Positions 689 to 11,210 of a DNA stretch of 23,971 bases are shown piece by piece. Made by a program: the position numbers and the translations under genes. The notes under the pieces are model-generated. The model worked only from the letters and a program-made list of their open reading frames with translations. It was not told where the DNA came from and made no database searches. Every line of letters begins with the position of its first letter. The first letter of the stretch is position 1. The DNA is from a virus: IMG/VR virus record IMGVR_UViG_3300008952_000302, positions 1 through 23,971 of that record; one strand, 5' to 3'.

Positions 689-2062
689 CTAGACGCCTCC
701 ATTTTTTCTAAATTCTTTGTACTTATCTTTGAGCCTTTGGGCTTGTTCTTTAGCACTCAAGGCCTTTATTTCTCCAATAGTTTCATTACTTTGTTCAAGA
801 ACCCGAATCTTTACTGAAGCGGTGTCCATGTACACAGGAAAGATGACACCATCCGGGCCGTTCCGGTTCTTCGCAACGAAGAGGCGGCCGCCTTTGGTCG
901 CTTTGTCTTCCACTGTGCGCGATACTGAGAAAATGAGATCAGCCACGAAACATTTGTTAAATGCTTCCGAAATAGATTCCATCGTAATGACCTCCGCGTT
1001 CAAGCCAGAGCGGTTAGTCTGCGAGGCCGTCCATACGGGACAATCAAATTCATGGGCTAACCCTCGCAGATCCTCATAAATAGTCTCTAACTCATGTCTC
1101 TTCTCTTTACGAATCGTTTTAGGGCGCAATAAGTCTCCATAATCTACGATTAACATATCCACATCGATTCCGCGCTGACGCAGGGAGTCCAAATGTGCCC
1201 GAAGCGTTTGTGTTGAGGCGCTCTTGGTGGCATACTCTTTCACAATAAGAGCGCCCGGGATATCTTGAACCTTTTCGTAGATTTGTTCCTTAAAGGTACC
1301 CAAATCCCCGAGCGGTACGCCCGTGATACAGCTATCATAGCGGGAAGCAATAGTGGTGTCGGCCAACTCCAAAGTATAGTGGACCACACTCTTTCCAGCT
1401 TTCAACGCCTCTGCGCCCAGGTGAACAAGGACCATCGATTTGCCGGCGCCCGTCGGAGCGATGACCACCCCCAATTCCCCTTTCCCCAAACCATCCTTAC
1501 AAATCGTGTCAATACTAGCCCACCCTGTACTCACAGGATCCCGAGCTTTGTGAGAAAAGCGGGCCTCAAAGTCCACTTTATAATCATATCCAAAATTGTT
1601 ATCGGCCCCAAGCTTGAGAGCCTCATTGATGATCTCACTTATCTCGTCAAAAGATGACGTCTTGAGGAGGGTCACTGATTTAAGCATGGCCTCTTTGAGT
1701 TTTTGTTTGCGGCAAAAATCTAGAGCCACTTCCTTAATATATTCTGCCCCCTCTACCGCTACCGCCATATTACAAATACGTGCAAAATAACTGCGCACTT
1801 GTACCTGGGTAGCTTCGTTTTCGTCTTCCAACTCTGCGCGGAAGACCGTGGTAAGAATTTTACAGGTGGGGTGGACCCCGTAGTCGTTCCTATACTTGGC
1901 GACCTTCTCTACAAAGACACGCAAGTACTTTAGTTCCAGAAAAGAGGGGTTAAGGACCTCCAAAATCTGATCAGCGAACGGCCGATCACTCAGAATCAGG
2001 TGGCACAGATCTTCCTGAAATGTTTTTCCAAACTTCGAAAATGTGGGAGCTTCATGATTCAT
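689..2062 (-). CDS. DnaB-family replicative helicase (T4 gp41-like)
   Basis: A 457-residue hexameric replicative helicase that would unwind DNA ahead of the phage polymerase using ATP. An N-terminal region of about 170 residues, matching the DnaB N-terminal and linker part, precedes a RecA-like core. The core has Walker A PTGAGKS at 203-209, a conserved Glu in LELAD near 231, Walker B LIVDYGD at 304-310, ASQTNR at 346-351, and KNRNG at 398-402, which fits the basic-finger region of DnaB proteins. The length is close to that of T4 gp41 and DnaB. The ATG start has no good Shine-Dalgarno sequence; the nearest GGAG is more than 20 bases upstream. It is also in the same frame as the upstream nuclease, separated by TAG and four codons. 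No primase or helicase loader is visible nearby. Confidence 0.9.
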   Translation of the reverse strand: MNHEAPTFSKFGKTFQEDLCHLILSDRPFADQILEVLNPSFLELKYLRVFVEKVAKYRNDYGVHPTCKILTTVFRAELEDENEATQVQVRSYFARICNMAVAVEGAEYIKEVALDFCRKQKLKEAMLKSVTLLKTSSFDEISEIINEALKLGADNNFGYDYKVDFEARFSHKARDPVSTGWASIDTICKDGLGKGELGVVIAPTGAGKSMVLVHLGAEALKAGKSVVHYTLELADTTIASRYDSCITGVPLGDLGTFKEQIYEKVQDIPGALIVKEYATKSASTQTLRAHLDSLRQRGIDVDMLIVDYGDLLRPKTIRKEKRHELETIYEDLRGLAHEFDCPVWTASQTNRSGLNAEVITMESISEAFNKCFVADLIFSVSRTVEDKATKGGRLFVAKNRNGPDGVIFPVYMDTASVKIRVLEQSNETIGEIKALSAKEQAQRLKDKYKEFRKNGGV

Positions 2063-2074
2063 ATTAATACTATA

Positions 2075-3076
2075 CTACAAAGTCTCCATATCGTTTACTT
2101 TCGTCTTGGGTTTTTTACTGTCAAAAATCATTTTATTAAAAGTGATAAACAAATCCGTAAGGTTTATATCGGCCATGCCATCCTCTACGCATTTTTTTCG
2201 AATGGCTGTCTTGTTCACTTCGGGAACGTGGGCAGCAAAGGTTTCGCGCACTACTTCCTTGGCCTGATAGGAAAGTGATGGCGCATAAAGTTGCATCAAC
2301 TTATAGTTCTCCTTGATAAGATCCTCGGCCTCAACAATGCTCGTATAACATCGAAGCTTCCCCTCAGTGAGGGCTTCTTCGCAAAACTCTATCAGTTCAG
2401 GAATAGTGCACTCCTTCGAGTTAGCGAAAAAGGGGAAGCGCTTTGCGATAGTACCGAGTCCCACTCCACGTACTCCTGGCAGATTGTCACTCTTATCCCC
2501 CACGACGGCCCGGGCGAGCGCAAAATTGTTAGGGTGAATTCCGTGAGTCTCTAGAACCCTTTTCTTGTTCAAGACCTGTTTCTGCACAGGGCGGAATAAA
2601 ATTGTTTCGTCGTCCAATAGTTGGTAAAAATCCTTGTCCGAACTCACGATCATCTTTTGTTTACCTCGTAAGCAAGGTAAGGAACACACATATGATATCA
2701 CGTCATCAGCTTCGACATGCTCAAACATAAATTGAAGAATAGGCATCTCATTGAGGTATTCAAAAAGACGCGTTTGTTGCCACACTTTGTTGGCTATCTC
2801 CTCTTCGGGTGTGAGATTGCGAATATCTCGATTCAAGCGGATGGGGGAGCGTCCCTCCTTGTATCCCTTGTTCGTACTCTTCCTACGCTGGGAGCCCCCG
2901 GCACCGTCCCAACAAATCACTATCTGCGTTGGGCTCGTCTCCCGCACCAGTTTATTTAATATTTTAAGAAATCCCTTGAGCCCGCCGATGGGGGACCCGC
3001 TTGTTGAAAGGGATGGGTCTACTATGTAGGCCCGGAAATACATATTCAGGGCGTCAATTACAAGGACACGGTCCAC
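2075..3076 (-). CDS. 5'-3' exonuclease / flap endonuclease, FEN family (T4 RNase H-like)
   Basis: A 333-residue metal-dependent nuclease expected to remove RNA primers and 5' flaps from lagging-strand fragments. It replaces the nuclease domain that bacterial DNA polymerase I carries and that the short phage polymerase here lacks. Acidic metal-site motifs are seen in the usual order: D8 in VIDALN, D57 in CWDG, EADD at 122-125, SSDKD at 145-149 and GDKSDN at 193-198, followed by LPGVRGVG at 199-206, the helix-hairpin-helix DNA-binding element. The start is GTG at 3076, supported by AGGAGG four bases upstream, just after the stop of the deaminase gene. It lies in a run with helicase and RNR. Confidence 0.9.
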   Translation of the reverse strand: MDRVLVIDALNMYFRAYIVDPSLSTSGSPIGGLKGFLKILNKLVRETSPTQIVICWDGAGGSQRRKSTNKGYKEGRSPIRLNRDIRNLTPEEEIANKVWQQTRLFEYLNEMPILQFMFEHVEADDVISYVCSLPCLRGKQKMIVSSDKDFYQLLDDETILFRPVQKQVLNKKRVLETHGIHPNNFALARAVVGDKSDNLPGVRGVGLGTIAKRFPFFANSKECTIPELIEFCEEALTEGKLRCYTSIVEAEDLIKENYKLMQLYAPSLSYQAKEVVRETFAAHVPEVNKTAIRKKCVEDGMADINLTDLFITFNKMIFDSKKPKTKVNDMETL

Positions 3077-3523: not shown

Positions 3524-3775
3524 TTATCGGAAACAACGATATTTGTAGCCACGAATGTAGCGTCGCTTTGCGGGGACACAACAATCGCGGCGAGGGCGCC
3601 TGCACACTCGCACAGCTACGCGGCCAGGGCGGTATACCCCCGGGGCCACTTCACGCCACTCTCCCCCATGAGTGCTTCGCACTTCTACACGCGTTACTTT
3701 GTAGTGGCCCGCGGGGATATAACACCCGCTTAGCATTAACACTACCACACTCAACCCTAGTATTTTTTTAATCAT
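3524..3775 (-). CDS. Small basic lipoprotein, unknown function
   Basis: An 83-residue protein with a lysine-start signal peptide, a hydrophobic core and a lipobox (LMLSGC, lipidated Cys at 18). It should be exported and anchored to a membrane through lipid. The mature part of about 65 residues is strongly basic (many Arg) and has four further cysteines, three of them as CRRPRRDCC and one near the C-terminus. ATG at 3775 is chosen because TAGGAG lies five bases upstream; a GTG two codons earlier has poorer spacing. It follows DnaK by 15 bases. Small phage lipoproteins can be outer-membrane spanin subunits or superinfection-exclusion or surface proteins, but no inner-membrane spanin partner is visible, so I assign no function. 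The lipoprotein call is good; the role is unknown. Confidence 0.75.
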   Translation of the reverse strand: MIKKILGLSVVVLMLSGCYIPAGHYKVTRVEVRSTHGGEWREVAPGVYRPGRVAVRVCRRPRRDCCVPAKRRYIRGYKYRCFR

Positions 3776-3790
3776 GGACACTCCTAATTC

Positions 3791-5644
3791 TTAGAGAGGT
3801 TCAGCCTCTACTACTTCTGGCTCATTATCCGGGTCATCAGGGCCATCCGATGGTGGACCTGCATCACGATGAAGGCGCCCCCCCACCTGCATCAACCCAT
3901 TTGTGAGGGTGTTGACCGCTTCCCTAATTTCATCCACTTCTTGTGTCTCAAGGTTTTCTATATTTTGAATCAACTCTTCAAGCATTTCCTTTTCTTCGTC
4001 CAAAACCTCGTTTTCATTCAAAAACTTGCGGGCCGCATACACAGATCCCTCGGCCTGGTTGGTGACGTCAATTAGTTCCTTTCTTTTTTCATCTTCATCC
4101 CGGTGGGCTTCCGCGTCGCGACGCATCCGCTCAATATCCTCGTCAGTAAGGCCGCTGGAAGACTCAATGCGAATAGTCTGTTCCTTGGATGTGGCCTTAT
4201 CGATGGCCGAAACGCTCAGGATCCCGTTCACATCCAAGTCAAATGTTACTTCGATCTGAGGGATGCCCCGGGGCGCGGGCGGAATACCCTCCAGGTGGAA
4301 ACGACCTAAAGATTTGTTGTCTCCGGCCATCTGCCTCTCTCCCTGCAGAACATGGATCTCAACACTATGCTGTGCATCTTCAGCAGTGGAAAACGTTTCC
4401 GATTTTTGAGTAGGAATAGTAGTATTAGCATCAATAATGCGTGTGAAGACGCCTCCAAGAGTTTCAATGCCCAAAGAGAGAGGAGTCACGTCCAACAATA
4501 AAACATCGGTCACGTCTCCCGCAAGCACGCCGCCCTGAATAGCGGCGCCTAGGGCGACCACCTCATCCGGGTTAACACTCCGACTTGGCTCCCGCCCAAA
4601 GACCTCTTCCACCAGAGTCTGCACAGCAGGAATTCGCGTTGACCCCCCTACGAGCAGGACCTCATCAATCTCATCCCGCGTAAACCCTGAATCATGCAAC
4701 GCCTTCGTGCAGGGCCCCACAATCCGCTGCAGCTTTTCCTCAATTAATTGCTCAAACTTAGAGCGCGTCAACTTCAAATTTAGATGTCGGGGGCCCGAGG
4801 AATCTGCGGTAATATAAGGCAAATTGATAGATGCCTGAGTGGTGGTGGAAAGTTCACACTTAGTTTTTTCCACAGTTTCTTTCAAGCGCTGCAGAGCTAG
4901 AGGGTCTTTGCTCAGATCAATGCCGTCGCTTCGAAGAAATTCAGAAATCACCCACTCCACGAGAATCTGATCGAAGTCGTCCCCGCCTAGGGTAGTGTCC
5001 CCATTGGTCGCTTTTACTTCAAAAACACTGTCGGCAATTTCGAGAATGGAAATGTCAAACGTGCCCCCTCCTAAATCAAAAACAGCTATCTTTAGCTCTT
5101 CTTTTTTGTCAAGCCCATAGGCTAGAGCGGCGGCAGTGGGTTCGTTGATAATACGTTTCACTTCTAAGCCGGCGATGGTGCCGGCATCTTTGGTAGCCTG
5201 ACGTTGGTCATCATTAAAGTAAGCTGGCACGGTAATAACCGCCTCAGTAACGTCGGTACCTAGAAAATCTTCTGCTACCTGCTTCAAGTTTTGTAAAACA
5301 AACGCAGAAATTTCAGCTGGAGAGAACACCGCATCGCCAGCTCGGATGCCCACTTTTCCCCCGTCGTCTTCCACGTCGTAGGGGAGCCGCTCGGCTTCAC
5401 TCTTAGCTTCGGCCACAGAACGTCCAATAAAACGTTTTGCAGAAAAGATAGTGTTGGCAGGATTTGTAGCAGCCTGGCGCTTGGCAGTGACTCCCACAAC
5501 GCGGTCACCACCCTCCTCGAACCCCACCACCGAGGGCGTCGTACGCCCTCCCTCTCGATTCTGAATGATCCTGGGGGTCTTTCCCTCCATCACGGCTACC
5601 ACCGAATTGGTGGTGCCCAAATCAATTCCGATTATTTTGCTCAT
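3791..5644 (-). CDS. dnaK: Molecular chaperone DnaK (Hsp70), full length
   Basis: A complete 617-residue Hsp70 that would fold or remodel proteins through ATP-driven cycles. The ATP-binding domain has IDLGTT at 6-11, the catalytic Lys in SAKRFIG at exactly residue 70 as in bacterial Dna[12 protein letters not shown] near 167-177, DLGGGTFD at 190-197 and a later GGSTRIP. The [11 protein letters not shown] linker joins the substrate-binding beta domain and a charged helical lid. The tail is acidic and ends [10 protein letters not shown], echoing the bacterial EEVD-type tails. ATG at 5644 ([12 protein letters not shown]) is preferred over an in-frame ATG at 5701 because the family begins here and GGAG lies nine bases upstream. 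It overlaps the end of uvsX by 23 bases. No DnaJ or GrpE gene is in the window, so it would need host partners or genes elsewhere. All key residues seem intact. A dnaK in a phage is unusual. Confidence 0.96.
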
Positions 5645-6758
5645 CAGTTTCTTCTCCATCAATAGTGTAATAGTCGGCGGCATTTCCAGTCTTATTTTCA
5701 AATTTCAAAATAACCTCCTCTTCAATTAAATCCAAGACGCGTTGTCGGAATTTATCTTCTTGAAGCTTAGGTAGCCAGCCTGTCTTTTGAAACTTGTCTA
5801 CAGTGCCATCAGTGTGGTGCAACGAAAACCATGCTCCAGCATTAGTAAGGTGCTCCGAGGATTTAATTGCCTCGAACCAACTCTCTTCGTCACAAATCCT
5901 GACGTCGTCGCCGCCCCACACAATCTTAAAGGTGCATACGCGGCCCTGTGTGCCGAACCTAGATTTTTCAATTTTGGCCTTTACCTCGGATCCGATTCTA
6001 AACCCCTTTTCATCCGTGATAAAACTTGCCTTAGCTTTGCGGGCAGTGAGCCAAATGCGTAATGAATAGGAATAGTTAAGAGCTTTGCCACCCGGAGTAA
6101 AATACGGAGTCGTCATAGCTTCAGCCACATTGCTAGTAATGTTTGTTTTAAGTTGATTAAGCACTAGTAAAGTTGACGAACTATTAGCAATTGGCTGAAC
6201 TAGCTTTGACAGCCCTTTCGAAAGGATTCTAGGCTTCACAGCCATGGAAGACAAAGGGTTGTAGTCACCCTCAATATCTGACTTGCTGGGAGTGAAGGCT
6301 AAACTATCCCAGATAAACAAAAATTGATTACCGGTACCAAGAAGCTCCTCAATATATTCCAACACAGACTCAACGCTCGTAGCCTGTACGTAAATCACAT
6401 CTTCCACTGTGCAACCAGCGCGGGCCAGAAAACCCGAGTCTAGCGCAGATTCCGAATCGAAATACACCACACTAATGTCATCCGCCTGAGCGTTAGCCGC
6501 TATTTGTGCTGCCATATAAGATTTGCCAGTAGATTCAAGGCCAGCTATTTCTACTATCTTTCCCATGGGAATGCCAGCGCTCTTGCCGCGACATATAACA
6601 GAATCAAGCCACCGAGAACCTGTAGGGATCCACTTTTGTACATCTGTGGGGTTGCTTGTTGTCAAGTCGAAAGCAACGCTAGCCCCCGCCCTCTTATTAA
6701 GCATCTTACGCATCGCTGCAGTGCTAATCTTACCCACTTTGTTGCCGTTTTTTGCCAC
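5622..6758 (-). CDS. uvsX: UvsX/RecA-family recombinase
   Basis: A 378-residue strand-exchange ATPase for recombination, repair and recombination-dependent replication. From a GTG start at 6758, Walker A GLESTGKS lies at 73-80, a Glu/Ser-rich strand YFDSESALD near 99-107, Walker [10 protein letters not shown] near 146-154, and the DNA-binding loop region follows [10 protein letters not shown] near 199-208 with FTPGGKAL after it. [10 protein letters not shown] segment near 265-273 matches the C-terminal part of the core. The C-terminus is acidic. GTG at 6758 is chosen because AAGGAG lies six bases upstream; an ATG nine codons earlier (6785) has no convincing site. It follows the SSB gene by 65 bases, as expected for proteins that load on the same ssDNA, and its end overlaps dnaK. 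Confidence 0.92.
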
Positions 6759-6823
6759 TCTGTTCTCCTTAAAAAGATGAGACATCTGTATACCCCCATG
6801 CCTCCCTGCGGGTGGGACATCAA

Positions 6824-7579
6824 TTAGCCAAGAAGCTCTTGGAAGGCTTCGTCAACCGAGACGGCGGTGTCGGAAGAGGTCGTCGTAGCACCAAACTTTG
6901 TGGTCTCCGACGACGTTTCCTCGGCATCGCTCTCATCCAAGAGATACGCGTCCAGCATAGCTCCCACCTCTTCAGCGCTCTTACGCTCGAAAAGAGCTTC
7001 GAACTCCGGGACACTCTCCAGCCACGTTGCAGCTACCGTGTCGTCTTCCGTCAAGAGGGTGGATCGACGGCGGGGCGTAAGCTTGGTTTGCGGGAACTGT
7101 GCTCCCGCAGGCTTGCCGTAGTGAAGAACCAAATCGGTTCCAGTCTCTGGGTCAGTGATATCGCCATACTCGGGATTGAGCACCAAATTAAGAAGCTGCT
7201 CGTAGACCATTTTCCCGAAACCCCAGACGCGTACGCCGGAATCTTCCTCGCCACGAACGACGACAGGGGCAAAGAAGCGCTGGCGCGCCATTAGGTTTTT
7301 AGCCATCTTAATGCTGTCCTCGGTACCCTCGTTGAAGAGCTTACGCACAAAGTTGTCAAGAGGATCGTCCTCCCCGAAGTTCTTCTTAGGTGAAAGGAAC
7401 CCCGCATTCTCCCCTAGATTGTAATGAAACCAAAAATCCTTAAAAGGATCACCGTCGGTCGTGGGCACGATACGAATGGTCTGCTCACCATCCTCCGGGC
7501 GCCAAAAATTACTACGTGAAGAGCCGCGGTTTTCCAAGGCCTCCTTTCTTTCTCTAATCTTATCTAAATTGATAGCCAT
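6824..7579 (-). CDS. 32: Single-stranded DNA-binding protein, T4 gp32-like
   Basis: A 251-residue ssDNA-binding protein that would coat replication intermediates and work with UvsX and the helicase. The N-terminus (MAINLDKIRERKEAL) is basic like the gp32 cooperativity region. An OB-fold core follows (FWRPEDGEQTIRIVP, FHYNLG, LVLNPEYGDITDPETGTDL). The C-terminus, from about 205, is acidic and Ser/Thr-rich and ends DEAFQELLG, as in the protein-interaction tail of gp32. The protein has no cysteine at all. In relatives that bind zinc the segment reads roughly CPK..FGE.CPIC; here it is SPKKNFGEDDPLD at 63-75, so the three Cys ligands are Ser, Asp and Asp. The start at 7579 has a perfect AGGAGG four bases upstream. 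It has its own promoter and a leader hairpin. Confidence 0.88.
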   Translation of the reverse strand: MAINLDKIRERKEALENRGSSRSNFWRPEDGEQTIRIVPTTDGDPFKDFWFHYNLGENAGFLSPKKNFGEDDPLDNFVRKLFNEGTEDSIKMAKNLMARQRFFAPVVVRGEEDSGVRVWGFGKMVYEQLLNLVLNPEYGDITDPETGTDLVLHYGKPAGAQFPQTKLTPRRRSTLLTEDDTVAATWLESVPEFEALFERKSAEEVGAMLDAYLLDESDAEETSSETTKFGATTTSSDTAVSVDEAFQELLG

Positions 7580-7646: not shown

Positions 7647-7675
7647 AATATAACACAGCATATCTATCTTGTCAA
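7647..7675 (-). promoter_or_regulatory. Sigma70-type promoter for SSB-UvsX-DnaK
   Basis: TTGACA (7670-7675, minus strand), a 17-base spacer and TATATT (7647-7652, five of six matches). The TGA stop of the upstream FtsZ/tubulin-like gene lies inside the TTGACA. Predicted transcription start is near 7640. Confidence 0.8.
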
Positions 7676-8502
7676 GGGATCGTTTGTATTTTTGATGTGT
7701 GAGAAACAAAATAAACATAGTGATCTTCATAAGCGGTTGAAAAAATTGAATAATTAATTTTCATATCCTCCTCATGAGCAGTAATATATTTCTTTATCTC
7801 TTGAAGAAGGCCTTCCCGTTGCATACCTTCTTCGCTTATAGCAAAATAGTAATCCTTTTCTTCCACATTGTTAAGAGTATAAAAGCTTTTTTCTGCATTT
7901 TCAAACGTAGCCACCCCTATGGTGGAAATGCGAGAAATATCTCTCAGTGGGGAAAACTCATCAAACTCCGCATCTGAATTCTGGAACACGTTTAGCATGT
8001 GAAGCGTGTTAGCGATCGTCTCATTGATCTTTTTGTAGTAATTTTTGACCGTGAGGTCGGCCTTTAAAGCGTTCTCTACCGCAACGTTGTCAATGAGATA
8101 AATGCGTTCAAACGCCCCTGATCGGGCGTATTCCTGTAAGACGTGGAACACAGTACGCTCGTTAAGGCGCTCTTCTTCGTTCAAAAATTTGCGATCCGGA
8201 ATGATGTACACCACTGTAATGTAGGCCTCGCGCATGGCCTGTAGCAGGCGCAAACTGGCCGCTGATTCGAGTGTTCCTCCACATACGACAAAAATTATTT
8301 CCTTGGGCAACTCCTTAAAGAGTGCTGACATGTCGACACCATTAGCATCATACTCTTCTGCACTCGTAGCGGGGGGCAAATGTAAAGAACGGGCCCCGTC
8401 TTGAGCAAGCTTGGAAATCTTATAAACCGTGTATTGGGAGTATTCCTCAAACGCACTCGCCACCCGGGCAGCTGGGGCACCTAGGGCCACAACTGTTTTC
8501 AT
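7672..8502 (-). CDS. Divergent FtsZ/tubulin-superfamily-like protein
   Basis: A 276-residue protein not annotatable by simple motif, but its whole layout follows the FtsZ/tubulin fold. A first beta strand and glycine turn (VVALGAP, 4-10) open it. IIFVVCGGTLESAASLRLL at 69-87 aligns with the FtsZ GGGTGTGAAP nucleotide loop. ITVVYIIPDRKFLNEEER at 95-112 and FERIYLIDN at 131-139 align with the strand-helix-strand that in FtsZ reads TV.VVT.PF.FEG..R and ends at IPN. A helix at 153-173 comes before DAEFDEF at 177-183, the position of the catalytic T7 loop. The last 60 residues (DYYFAISEEGMQREGLLQEI to VYFVSHTS) match the C-terminal activation domain. The glycines of both nucleotide loops are partly lost, so GTP binding is uncertain. 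The start overlaps the MazG-like stop (ATGA) with AAGGA upstream. The assignment is by eye. Confidence 0.55.
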   Translation of the reverse strand: MKTVVALGAPAARVASAFEEYSQYTVYKISKLAQDGARSLHLPPATSAEEYDANGVDMSALFKELPKEIIFVVCGGTLESAASLRLLQAMREAYITVVYIIPDRKFLNEEERLNERTVFHVLQEYARSGAFERIYLIDNVAVENALKADLTVKNYYKKINETIANTLHMLNVFQNSDAEFDEFSPLRDISRISTIGVATFENAEKSFYTLNNVEEKDYYFAISEEGMQREGLLQEIKKYITAHEEDMKINYSIFSTAYEDHYVYFVSHTSKIQTIP

Positions 8503-8819
8503 ACTTCTTCCTTATCTTGTATCTCTTCAAGAAAAATACGGTCGCGAAACGAGCCGCGGCGGGCGGCCTTGACCTCCTTAGCGGTCTCCATATCGTAAAG
8601 ATCAATAGAATAAAATTCTGCGAGGCACTCCAGCACCTCCATAATGTCAGCCATCTCTTCTTGGCACGGGTCCTCCAAAAACTCTTCCACCTCCTCACGC
8701 AACTTATCTTGCAGAGCTACCTCATATTCATTCCATGCTAAAACACGGTGAACGCATCGGCGCCCCTCGGCACCAATCAACTCAACAATTTTGTCTCTCA
8801 CTAACTTTCCAATCTTCAT
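8499..8819 (-). CDS. MazG/HisE-like nucleotide pyrophosphohydrolase
   Basis: A 106-residue all-alpha NTP pyrophosphohydrolase-like protein. The N-terminal KLVRDKIVELI and the metal-binding helix pattern KLREEVEEFLE followed by EEMADIMEVLECL (EExxE ... ExxAD) are typical of the small MazG/phosphoribosyl-ATP pyrophosphohydrolase-like group. Members cleave noncanonical or excess (d)NTPs, which in a phage could clean the nucleotide pool or lower alarmone-type signals; the substrate cannot be read here. The start ATG at 8819 forms an ATGA overlap with the polymerase stop and has GGGAG upstream. Its stop overlaps the next start in the same manner, so polymerase, this gene and the FtsZ-like gene are translationally coupled. 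Confidence 0.8.
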   Translation of the reverse strand: MKIGKLVRDKIVELIGAEGRRCVHRVLAWNEYEVALQDKLREEVEEFLEDPCQEEMADIMEVLECLAEFYSIDLYDMETAKEVKAARRGSFRDRIFLEEIQDKEEV

Positions 8820-10000
8820 AGCGATAACTCCCGCATCTCTCCATATTTTTGCCCATAACTCGCATTAGTGCGAAACTTTCCAAGATCTGTGCAGGCAAAA
8901 ATCTCCTGTATTTCTTTTAGAGCATACAGATCTTCCCTACAAACGTCCAAAACTATACTATCATGAACCAAGAAAGATATAAATGTTTTTTCTAATTGTT
9001 TCTCTACGTATTGCTCAACCTTCAGCGCTTGTCGCAAAAACAAATCACTGGTGGTACTCTGAATGATGTAATTCAAAGCGTGGTGGCTGTCACACGAAAT
9101 GGTCCTATCAAAAAACGTGGTCACCTCTTCACCAGTGAAATACTTTTTCACCACCGAGGCACGATCATACACCCGGTCAAGAAGATAATCCTTAGCGCTT
9201 GGATTATACAGCCATGCAAAAACCCTTCTTTTAGCCTCCTCTCTCGTACCTAAACCTCGAAAAACGTTCTCTATGTTCCATCCGTGTAAGTCTTCGGTCG
9301 GTTGTTCCAGCCCCGATAAAGCTAAGAGGGTACGAAGTTCAGCAGCATTATAGTCTATCTCGACAAAGCAATCATTTACTGGAGATAGCACGTTCCGATA
9401 CTCCTTTGCTAAGGTTAAAATGGGGAAAGAATCGGGGTCTGTTGTGAGGCGTCCCGTCTTGCCCTTAAACATGTTGTACTTGATGTGGGGTGAGATTTTA
9501 CTCAGGCGTTTTGAGAGATGGCGAGCGCTCGTCTTATGCAGGTGGTGCGTCAGTTGGGACGCGTCAACCCTCAAGGTCTGGGAGCGAATGCGACTTAACA
9601 ACAGCGACAAAGAATATAAAAAATCATAATTGGGAGGCTTTGTGTATGTCTCCAAGACGTGACGACAAATCTCGCTTTTAGTGTCTAAGAAAACACGGAT
9701 GTCCTTCTCGGGAACGACCCCCAGGAGCCCTCTATCCTCCCACCTCACCTGCGCGGTGCGGAGAGCTTTCAAATAAGCGCTAAGACGAGTTCGGGCGCCG
9801 ATCCACTTGTTGCGGATATGTGCTGGGCACACTTCATCTAGTCCCTGACCTTCTACATATAAAGAGGCGTAGTCCACATTAGGCGCCTCCGCCGTGGGGG
9901 CCCAGGATCCACAAAAGTCGGGTTGTAACTCTGCAAAAAATTCCCCTTCGGCATAATACCTGCCGGGGGCCCCCATACTATCCACACCCTGAAAGATCAT
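8816..10000 (-). CDS. Family A DNA polymerase, polymerase domain only
   Basis: A 394-residue family A DNA polymerase that probably copies the phage genome. Core motifs: TGRLTT at 182-187; motif A DYNAAELR at 216-223 with the metal Asp; motif B with R253, K257, F261 and Y265 spaced exactly as R...K...F...Y in the O-helix, but Asn instead of Gly after the Tyr; a Q-helix with QSTTSD; motif C VHDSIVLDV with H346, D347 and Ser in place of the usual Glu. The roughly 180 residues before the palm are too few for a thumb plus a 3'-5' exonuclease domain, and no exonuclease motif is visible, so proofreading must come from another gene or be absent. ATG at 10000 (or 10003) is chosen for AAGGAG upstream; an ATG at 10063 exists but lacks such a site. 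It overlaps the preceding gene by 23 bases. Confidence 0.88.
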   Translation of the reverse strand: MIFQGVDSMGAPGRYYAEGEFFAELQPDFCGSWAPTAEAPNVDYASLYVEGQGLDEVCPAHIRNKWIGARTRLSAYLKALRTAQVRWEDRGLLGVVPEKDIRVFLDTKSEICRHVLETYTKPPNYDFLYSLSLLLSRIRSQTLRVDASQLTHHLHKTSARHLSKRLSKISPHIKYNMFKGKTGRLTTDPDSFPILTLAKEYRNVLSPVNDCFVEIDYNAAELRTLLALSGLEQPTEDLHGWNIENVFRGLGTREEAKRRVFAWLYNPSAKDYLLDRVYDRASVVKKYFTGEEVTTFFDRTISCDSHHALNYIIQSTTSDLFLRQALKVEQYVEKQLEKTFISFLVHDSIVLDVCREDLYALKEIQEIFACTDLGKFRTNASYGQKYGEMRELSL

Positions 10001-11210
10001 CATCGACTCCTTCGGGAGGAGGTTCTCCCCACCCGTCTCGAAATGTTGTTTTCGTCTCTTCATTAATATACAACATTGCTTCCGCTAAGTCAATATAATT
10101 TTTCAATTTGATTACTTTTTTTGTTTCTCTCTGAATTTTGTATTTATCAGGATGTTGGCCAGCCTCGATTGCTCGCAATGTATAGTACTGCGGTAGCCAA
10201 TAATCGTCTGTAAGGTAGAAATACCTACCCAGCATCCAACTACTCTCAAGACGACTACTAAATATGGCGTCATATCTCAATACCTGACGCCTCACTTGTT
10301 TTGTCTTGATGACAGGGCGTCCCCCACATACGACCGACTCACTTTTAATGCTCACCGGAGATTCTGTAGCAAAAGTGTTATAATAATATATCATATAACG
10401 GCGCAATGTCTCCATGTCATAAGGATAGGCCTGAACATAGCATCGTTCGAAAATATTTTCACGGGTAAGCCCGTAGGGTCGCATATACCTCTGCATTTGG
10501 GGAGATCCAAAGTTTGCTACGAGGCGCCATGGCGCGTTTTTGTCAACCAGAAACCCAAACCGGCGCGCCGTGGTCACATAATAAGAAAAATAACGATTAC
10601 TAAAAAACTCCTCAACCTTGGGGCCATCCTCCGAGTGGTTGAGCGTAGCAATCTCAAGACAGAGACCGCTTACATTGGGTGACACGAGGTTAGTTAAGAT
10701 AAAATTGGTTCGAGTGATGGGTAATGCCCCTCCGGATAACTTGTAGAACTCCATAAAGTAGCGAATGTAATCGTTCACGTTTGCAATTTTTTTGTCTAAA
10801 CCATGGCGCGTCACATACTGCTCCAGGAACACAAAATTTTGATTCTTCAGAGCTTCTGCATACTCTTTGTTAAGATCCACCCAACCACGCCTCACTTGCA
10901 TATCTTGAAGAAAGTCCGTACTCTCCAGCTGTAGAATTCCGCGCGCTTGGCACAACGAAATATACCTCTTCATAGCTGCGAACGCGTCGACCACAAACCG
11001 CAGGGCGGAGGCCTCAACTTTCTGATCAAAAGTCTCCAATTCCGACTCCTTCACCATGACAGCATTGAACTCACAATCTACCTTCCCGAAGAAAAGCCTC
11101 TTGCCTCGGAAATCCAAATATTCAGGATTCTCCGAATCATACAATTCAGCATAAATAGAGCGTGCTTCAAACAGCTCATCCGCATTTAGGTCGTTATTCC
11201 CGTATGGCAT
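9978..11210 (-). CDS. Conserved phage protein of unknown function, possibly virion-associated
   Basis: A 410-residue protein, rich in Tyr, Phe and Arg, with no signal peptide or membrane segment. The segment GFLVDKNAPWRLVANFGSP at about 227-245 looks like one I associate with large marine T4-like phages, where the protein is usually an unnamed hypothetical. The C-terminal tail is acidic and Pro-rich. ATG at 11210 directly abuts the TAA of the hub-like gene, with GGAGG seven bases upstream, so the two are co-translated. The polymerase gene starts inside its 3' end. Position at the tail/replication junction leaves the role open: virion component, or polymerase accessory factor. I looked for exonuclease DEDD-type motifs and saw none. 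Confidence 0.6.
   Translation of the reverse strand: MPYGNNDLNADELFEARSIYAELYDSENPEYLDFRGKRLFFGKVDCEFNAVMVKESELETFDQKVEASALRFVVDAFAAMKRYISLCQARGILQLESTDFLQDMQVRRGWVDLNKEYAEALKNQNFVFLEQYVTRHGLDKKIANVNDYIRYFMEFYKLSGGALPITRTNFILTNLVSPNVSGLCLEIATLNHSEDGPKVEEFFSNRYFSYYVTTARRFGFLVDKNAPWRLVANFGSPQMQRYMRPYGLTRENIFERCYVQAYPYDMETLRRYMIYYYNTFATESPVSIKSESVVCGGRPVIKTKQVRRQVLRYDAIFSSRLESSWMLGRYFYLTDDYWLPQYYTLRAIEAGQHPDKYKIQRETKKVIKLKNYIDLAEAMLYINEETKTTFRDGWGEPPPEGVDDDLSGCG

Follow-up and report, generated by a model that had tools for sequence, protein, structure and literature searches.

A compact tubulin-fold protein family encoded in the replication operon of uncultured marine phages

We identified a family of compact phage proteins that almost certainly adopt the FtsZ/tubulin fold and whose gene belongs to the core of the replication module in a large set of uncultured marine myophages. 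According to structural modelling the family is a new one within the known FtsZ/tubulin superfamily; it is marine and viral, and has no entry in Pfam, PHROGs or the cultured-phage collection. The superfamily thereby gains an abundant family not listed before, and the replication genes of common ocean phages gain a core member. As the best explanation of its role we tentatively propose that it serves the phage replication machinery as a non-hydrolysing, largely static tubulin-fold scaffold or coupling factor. The member that prompted this analysis lies in the window, the stretch of DNA analysed here, which is an entire virus record of 23,971 bases. Tail tube and baseplate genes on the window point to a myovirus.

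The case for the fold rests primarily on structure. An AlphaFold2 model computed without nucleotide, using 96 homologues from marine viral contigs, had a mean pLDDT of 95.1 and a pTM of 0.92 (a model from the single sequence, pLDDT 52.0, was set aside), and it shows the two-domain arrangement with a central H7. The original prediction, made from the window sequence, had called an FtsZ/tubulin fold over both domains and proposed structure prediction with a Foldseek search as a check. Foldseek placed FtsZ first in the PDB (E 7.8e-13, TM 0.71), and the best 50 matches listed were all FtsZ, TubZ, CetZ or tubulin. VIA-align matched essentially the whole model to CetZ (3zid_B, Z 24.7, 255 residues, 3.0 A), TubZ (Z 23.1), FtsZ (Z 22.6) and tubulin (Z ~22), with models of phage FtsZ- and PhuZ-like proteins also among the structural matches. 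The CetZ match extends over residues 1-276, bearing out the predicted fold.

Profile comparisons point the same way. Against PhuZ, the family profile scored 38.9 in hhalign, compared with 14.9 +/- 2.2 (maximum 21.4) for 60 column shuffles; PhuZ was the best profile match of those tried (probability 54%, E 1.3e-4), with the alignment confined to the N-terminal 98 columns. In the profile-profile alignment to FtsZ, the T1, T4 and T6 loops and the start of H7 are in register, which agrees with the originally proposed motif order, including LIDN at the IPN position. The FtsZ hhalign score of 24.4 exceeded its shuffle null (14.7 +/- 2.4, maximum 23.4). Against Pfam Tubulin (PF00091), the window protein had no match and 31 members yielded one weak match under the cut-off (E 0.043). 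We also considered a non-tubulin Rossmann fold, as 8 of the 31 members weakly matched TrkA_N (best 6e-5), and rejected it because the structural matches listed were all to the tubulin superfamily.

Searches with the window protein alone returned no convincing match in Pfam, PHROGs, PDB sequences, cultured phages, or viral or genome contigs, and profile searches against PDB sequences returned no match. Since single-sequence searches gave no relatives, the family was discovered only through neighbouring helicase loci: using the window DnaB as a query we obtained 80 viral loci, 49 of which encode a tubulin-like protein 30-50% identical to that of the window. A 31-member profile then matched at least 600 stretches in IMG/VR, at least 598 of which were confirmed as relatives. 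The family appears distinct from PhuZ, and the original description of a separate, derived member of the superfamily is supported.

Fourteen long records (72 to 190 kb) each carry one copy of the tubulin-like gene. It was found in all 39 of the dnaB-selected loci that include an SSB gene and more than 1.5 kb upstream, and in 34 of these 39 it lies upstream of the SSB gene at a distance of no more than 600 nt, a set that is partly dependent because some contigs are near-copies. It usually follows a family A polymerase gene, in some loci with a MazG-like gene in between, and precedes the gene for a gp32-type SSB. The operon in the window is organized as follows.

9978..11210, minus strand: 410-aa ORF 5' of the polymerase, at the same position in relatives, without a family match
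8816..10063, minus strand: family A DNA polymerase, catalytic part (PF00476, E 1.8e-11)
8499..8819, minus strand: MazG/PRA-PH-like protein, 106 aa, assigned by motif without a supporting Pfam match, with an ATGA overlap at either side
7672..8502, minus strand: tubulin-fold protein, 276 aa (ORF from an ATG at 8502 down to 7672; Foldseek and VIA matches over 1-276)
6824..7579, minus strand: gp32-type ssDNA-binding protein (SSB)
5622..6785, minus strand: UvsX/RecA recombinase
2075..3076, minus strand: 5'-3' exonuclease
689..2062, minus strand: DnaB-type replicative helicase

The genes 3' of the tubulin-like gene run in the same direction, in the order SSB, UvsX, DnaK, an 85-aa ORF, dCMP deaminase, 5'-3' exonuclease and DnaB. 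Four-nucleotide ATGA overlaps join the polymerase to the MazG-like gene (8816-8819) and the MazG-like to the tubulin-like gene (8499-8502), confirming the coupling to polymerase and pyrophosphohydrolase genes that had been read from the window. The synteny is conserved, and 61 of 81 loci show a polymerase or MazG-like stop codon overlapping the start of the tubulin-like gene. Such a neighbourhood suggests co-expression, not physical contact.

Other features of this operon were also observed. The polymerase and 410-aa ORFs (8816-11210) overlap by 86 nt, form a pair conserved among relatives, and may represent a split polymerase. A full-length DnaK (HSP70, E 1.9e-245) at 3791-5701 forms an insertion that separates uvsX from the dCMP deaminase gene; it shares ~60% identity with DnaK from huge uncultured phages and from bacteria, and had no match among 159 loci fetched from relatives. 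The 85-aa ORF between dnaK and the dCMP deaminase gene (3524-3781) starts with MSMIKKILGLSVVVLMLSGC, a lipoprotein-like signal.

To describe the nucleotide pocket, we list its elements in the window protein alongside the family state.

8455..8487, minus strand: T1 loop and start of H1, residues 6-16; ALGAPAARVAS in the window, with Ala at G6 and G11 of the family consensus GLGxAGCNIAD
8413..8415, minus strand: T3-type Asp position, residue 30; Ser in the window, Asp in 95% of 91 other members
8263..8280, minus strand: T4 loop, residues 75-80; GGTLES in the window, with Thr at G77 of the family consensus GSGxIS
8086..8088, minus strand: T6 Asn139 (LIDN), aligned with FtsZ IPN and kept in the window
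8023..8040, minus strand: start of H7, residues 155-160 (YYKKIN); Y155 and N160 kept in the window

The superfamily T4 signature GGGTG(T/S)G is found neither in the window nor in the family consensus. Of the T1 glycines, G6 and G11 are Ala in the window protein (GAPA), whereas most members outside its clade keep them: among 91 such members, G6, G8 and G11 are conserved at 97, 100 and 98%, D30 at 95%, G77 at 85%, and N139 and N160 at 96% each. N139, Y155 and N160, which by analogy with tubulin and FtsZ we take to contact guanine, are all present in the window protein, and the 5-residue spacing of Y155 and N160 equals that of FtsZ F182 and D187. In a set of 123 non-redundant members, 113 have Asn at both positions 139 and 160 and 10 have another residue at both; neither asparagine is ever replaced singly. 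Members without this pair also tend to have lost D30 and G77. On a tree built without these columns, the pair was lost in at least 3 changes, the tree being unrooted and the direction of change taken from rarity. This strict coupling supports a real guanine pocket in most members that was abandoned several times; most family members probably bind guanine nucleotide.

The window belongs to a five-sequence clade (window, L003-L005 and L198; support 99) in which D30 and G77 are replaced throughout. G6 and G11 are Ala in four of the five; L198 instead lacks N139 and N160. The originally predicted degenerate nucleotide loop therefore describes the window protein and its lineage, but not the family, most of which retains the glycines and both asparagines. 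Between L004 and L005 of this degenerate clade, dN is 0.055 and dS 1.42, giving a dN/dS of 0.039 that is approximate, as dS is near saturation; the low ratio implies purifying selection on a gene that is not decaying.

A rebuilt pocket could also mean that the tubulin fold has turned into a ligand sensor or an enzyme of nucleotide metabolism. The Rossmann core, the replacement of N139, N160 and G77 by V, Y, E and the like in several lineages, the dCMP deaminase gene among the neighbours and the MazG-like homologues in 28 of the 159 fetched loci would suit such a role. We consider it improbable, however, since the pocket residues vary, the conserved patch lies elsewhere, and no catalytic or metal-binding motif was noticed.

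That patch comprises residues in the H1-S2 loop (Y24, also at least 99% conserved among the 123 non-redundant members), at the end of H5 and in the second half of H7.

8119..8136, minus strand: end of H5, residues 123-128 (QEYARS); Q123, Y125, R127 and S128 at least 99% conserved
7996..8001, minus strand: H7 residues H168-M169, 98% conserved (120 of 123 each)

From strand and helix topology, these near-invariant residues should be on the face opposite the T loops. Q123, Y125, R127 and S128 remain at least 99% conserved although the pocket was lost at least 3 times.

The patch also bears on the earlier suggestion that the protein caps or poisons host FtsZ. A decoy that binds host FtsZ filaments and arrests division during phage replication has some logic, as an FtsZ-like fold without the T7 side might, in principle, join a filament at just one of its ends. 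Yet the most conserved residues are family-specific and not FtsZ-like, identity to FtsZ in structural alignments is ~10%, and the gene sits inside the replication operon at all informative loci, not among host-takeover genes. The phage FtsZ inhibitors known to us (Kil, KilR, Icd and Gp0.4) are, moreover, small and unrelated proteins. The suggestion thus appears very improbable.

The T7 region of the family departs from that of FtsZ.

7933..7980, minus strand: residues 175-190, an H7-S7 linker that replaces T7-H8; modelled without an H8 helix and lacking a conserved acidic residue

The T7 aspartate is catalytic in phage TubZ/PhuZ (PMC3678025). NxDFxD is present in 6 of 7 FtsZ sequences that we fetched, and the seventh keeps both aspartates. 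In the new family, acidic residues occupy no column between 162 and 198 in more than 67% of members, so the acidic run DAEFDEF previously assigned to T7 is not a family feature. Without conserved T7 acids, a classical assembly-driven GTPase is unlikely, and we infer from the alignment that hydrolysis has probably been lost. As the pocket of the window lineage has decayed while selection preserves the protein, it probably works without burning GTP.

Comparison with characterized relatives sets the family apart from each. Archaeal CetZ (3zid and 4b45) is the best structural match, with Z 24.7 and 24.0 and the same element order; it shares 14-16% identity with the phage family, which differs in its length of about 276 aa, in lacking the conserved T7 acid and H8, and in its place in a phage replication operon. 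PhuZ, or phiKZ TubZ, of nucleus-forming jumbo phages is likewise phage-encoded and of the same fold, but the new family lacks its conserved T7 aspartate and C-terminal tail and belongs to another phage group with other gene neighbours. TubZ of Bacillus plasmids matches structurally (Z 22.9-23.1) and resides in a TubR/tubC partition locus, in contrast to the polymerase, MazG-like, SSB and UvsX neighbours here. Relative to FtsZ, NxDFxD and the C-terminal peptide are missing and the T3-T4 region is shortened. The divergent FtsZl1 and FtsZl2 families offer a parallel in that their polymerisation elements are altered; FtsZl1 has no recognisable T6-H7 and lies in a vWA operon, whereas the new family has T6, H7 and a replication operon, and FtsZl2 retains T7 and carries about 300 aa of C-terminal region (PMC2875224). 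We found no description of the family in the literature on PhuZ, TubZ, CetZ, FtsZl1 and FtsZl2, a survey with subscription journals and preprints largely outside its scope.

The main and serious rival to a scaffold is a filament like those of PhuZ or TubZ, which would centre or segregate phage DNA, with nucleotide-driven assembly in most members and decayed lineages that are static or dependent on a partner. The superfamily fold over the full length, the profile match to PhuZ, the conservation of pocket residues in about 90% of the family and the gene's location in the replication operon all fit a filament. All superfamily proteins characterized at the time of PMC2875224 formed filaments (PMC2875224), which makes a filament the default expectation and counts against a scaffold. 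Nonetheless, the T7 acid is not conserved, and the gene was retained where the pocket was lost. The protein also ends just after S10, without the C-terminal tail that stabilises the phiKZ protofilament (PMC3678025), and chimallin was not matched in 10 long records, in a search run without a positive control. We regard the filament as less likely than a scaffold.

A scaffold fits better than a dynamic filament with the universal presence of the gene in the operon, the coupling to polymerase and SSB genes, the repeated loss of the pocket and the invariant face. In such a scaffold, most members would hold guanine nucleotide without classical assembly-driven hydrolysis, and in the window lineage the phosphate-binding part of the pocket would have decayed too. 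The invariant face (Y24, Q123, Y125, R127, S128, H168 and M169) would dock onto a replication protein, DNA or the protein's own kind. A stable, GTPase-independent replisome part – a non-cytoskeletal tubulin fold from which several lineages dropped the pocket while keeping a new interaction face – is conceivable, if doubtful. Lineages with intact and with decayed pockets both exist in nature and so offer an experiment, already set up, on the ability of a tubulin fold to function without GTP. The family also bears on whether tubulin-like proteins occur in phages beyond nucleus-forming jumbo phages and plasmid-like partition systems.

Several observations concern the family's distribution. Microcystis phage Mel-JY01, which has the nearest helicase among cultured phages, yielded no family member. 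The sole match in genome contigs, a candidate cellular homologue, is a roughly 5-kb piece of the phage operon in a WOR-3 MAG chromosome (CP070664.1), beside masked bases and surrounded by bacterial genes. It is probably a chimeric assembly, so the host cannot be read from this match. Lastly, one record (G006, 103389-104480; L163:1027-2121) carries a second, different FtsZ/tubulin-like gene. A second tubulin was rejected as a general feature, being seen in 1 of 30 records, with the gp55-like gene elsewhere lacking such a neighbour. The second protein in G006 has 364 aa, a GGGGGTGS loop and a PF00091 match (E 3e-6), and its gene adjoins a gp55-like sigma gene; the G006 phage thus encodes two tubulin-superfamily proteins.
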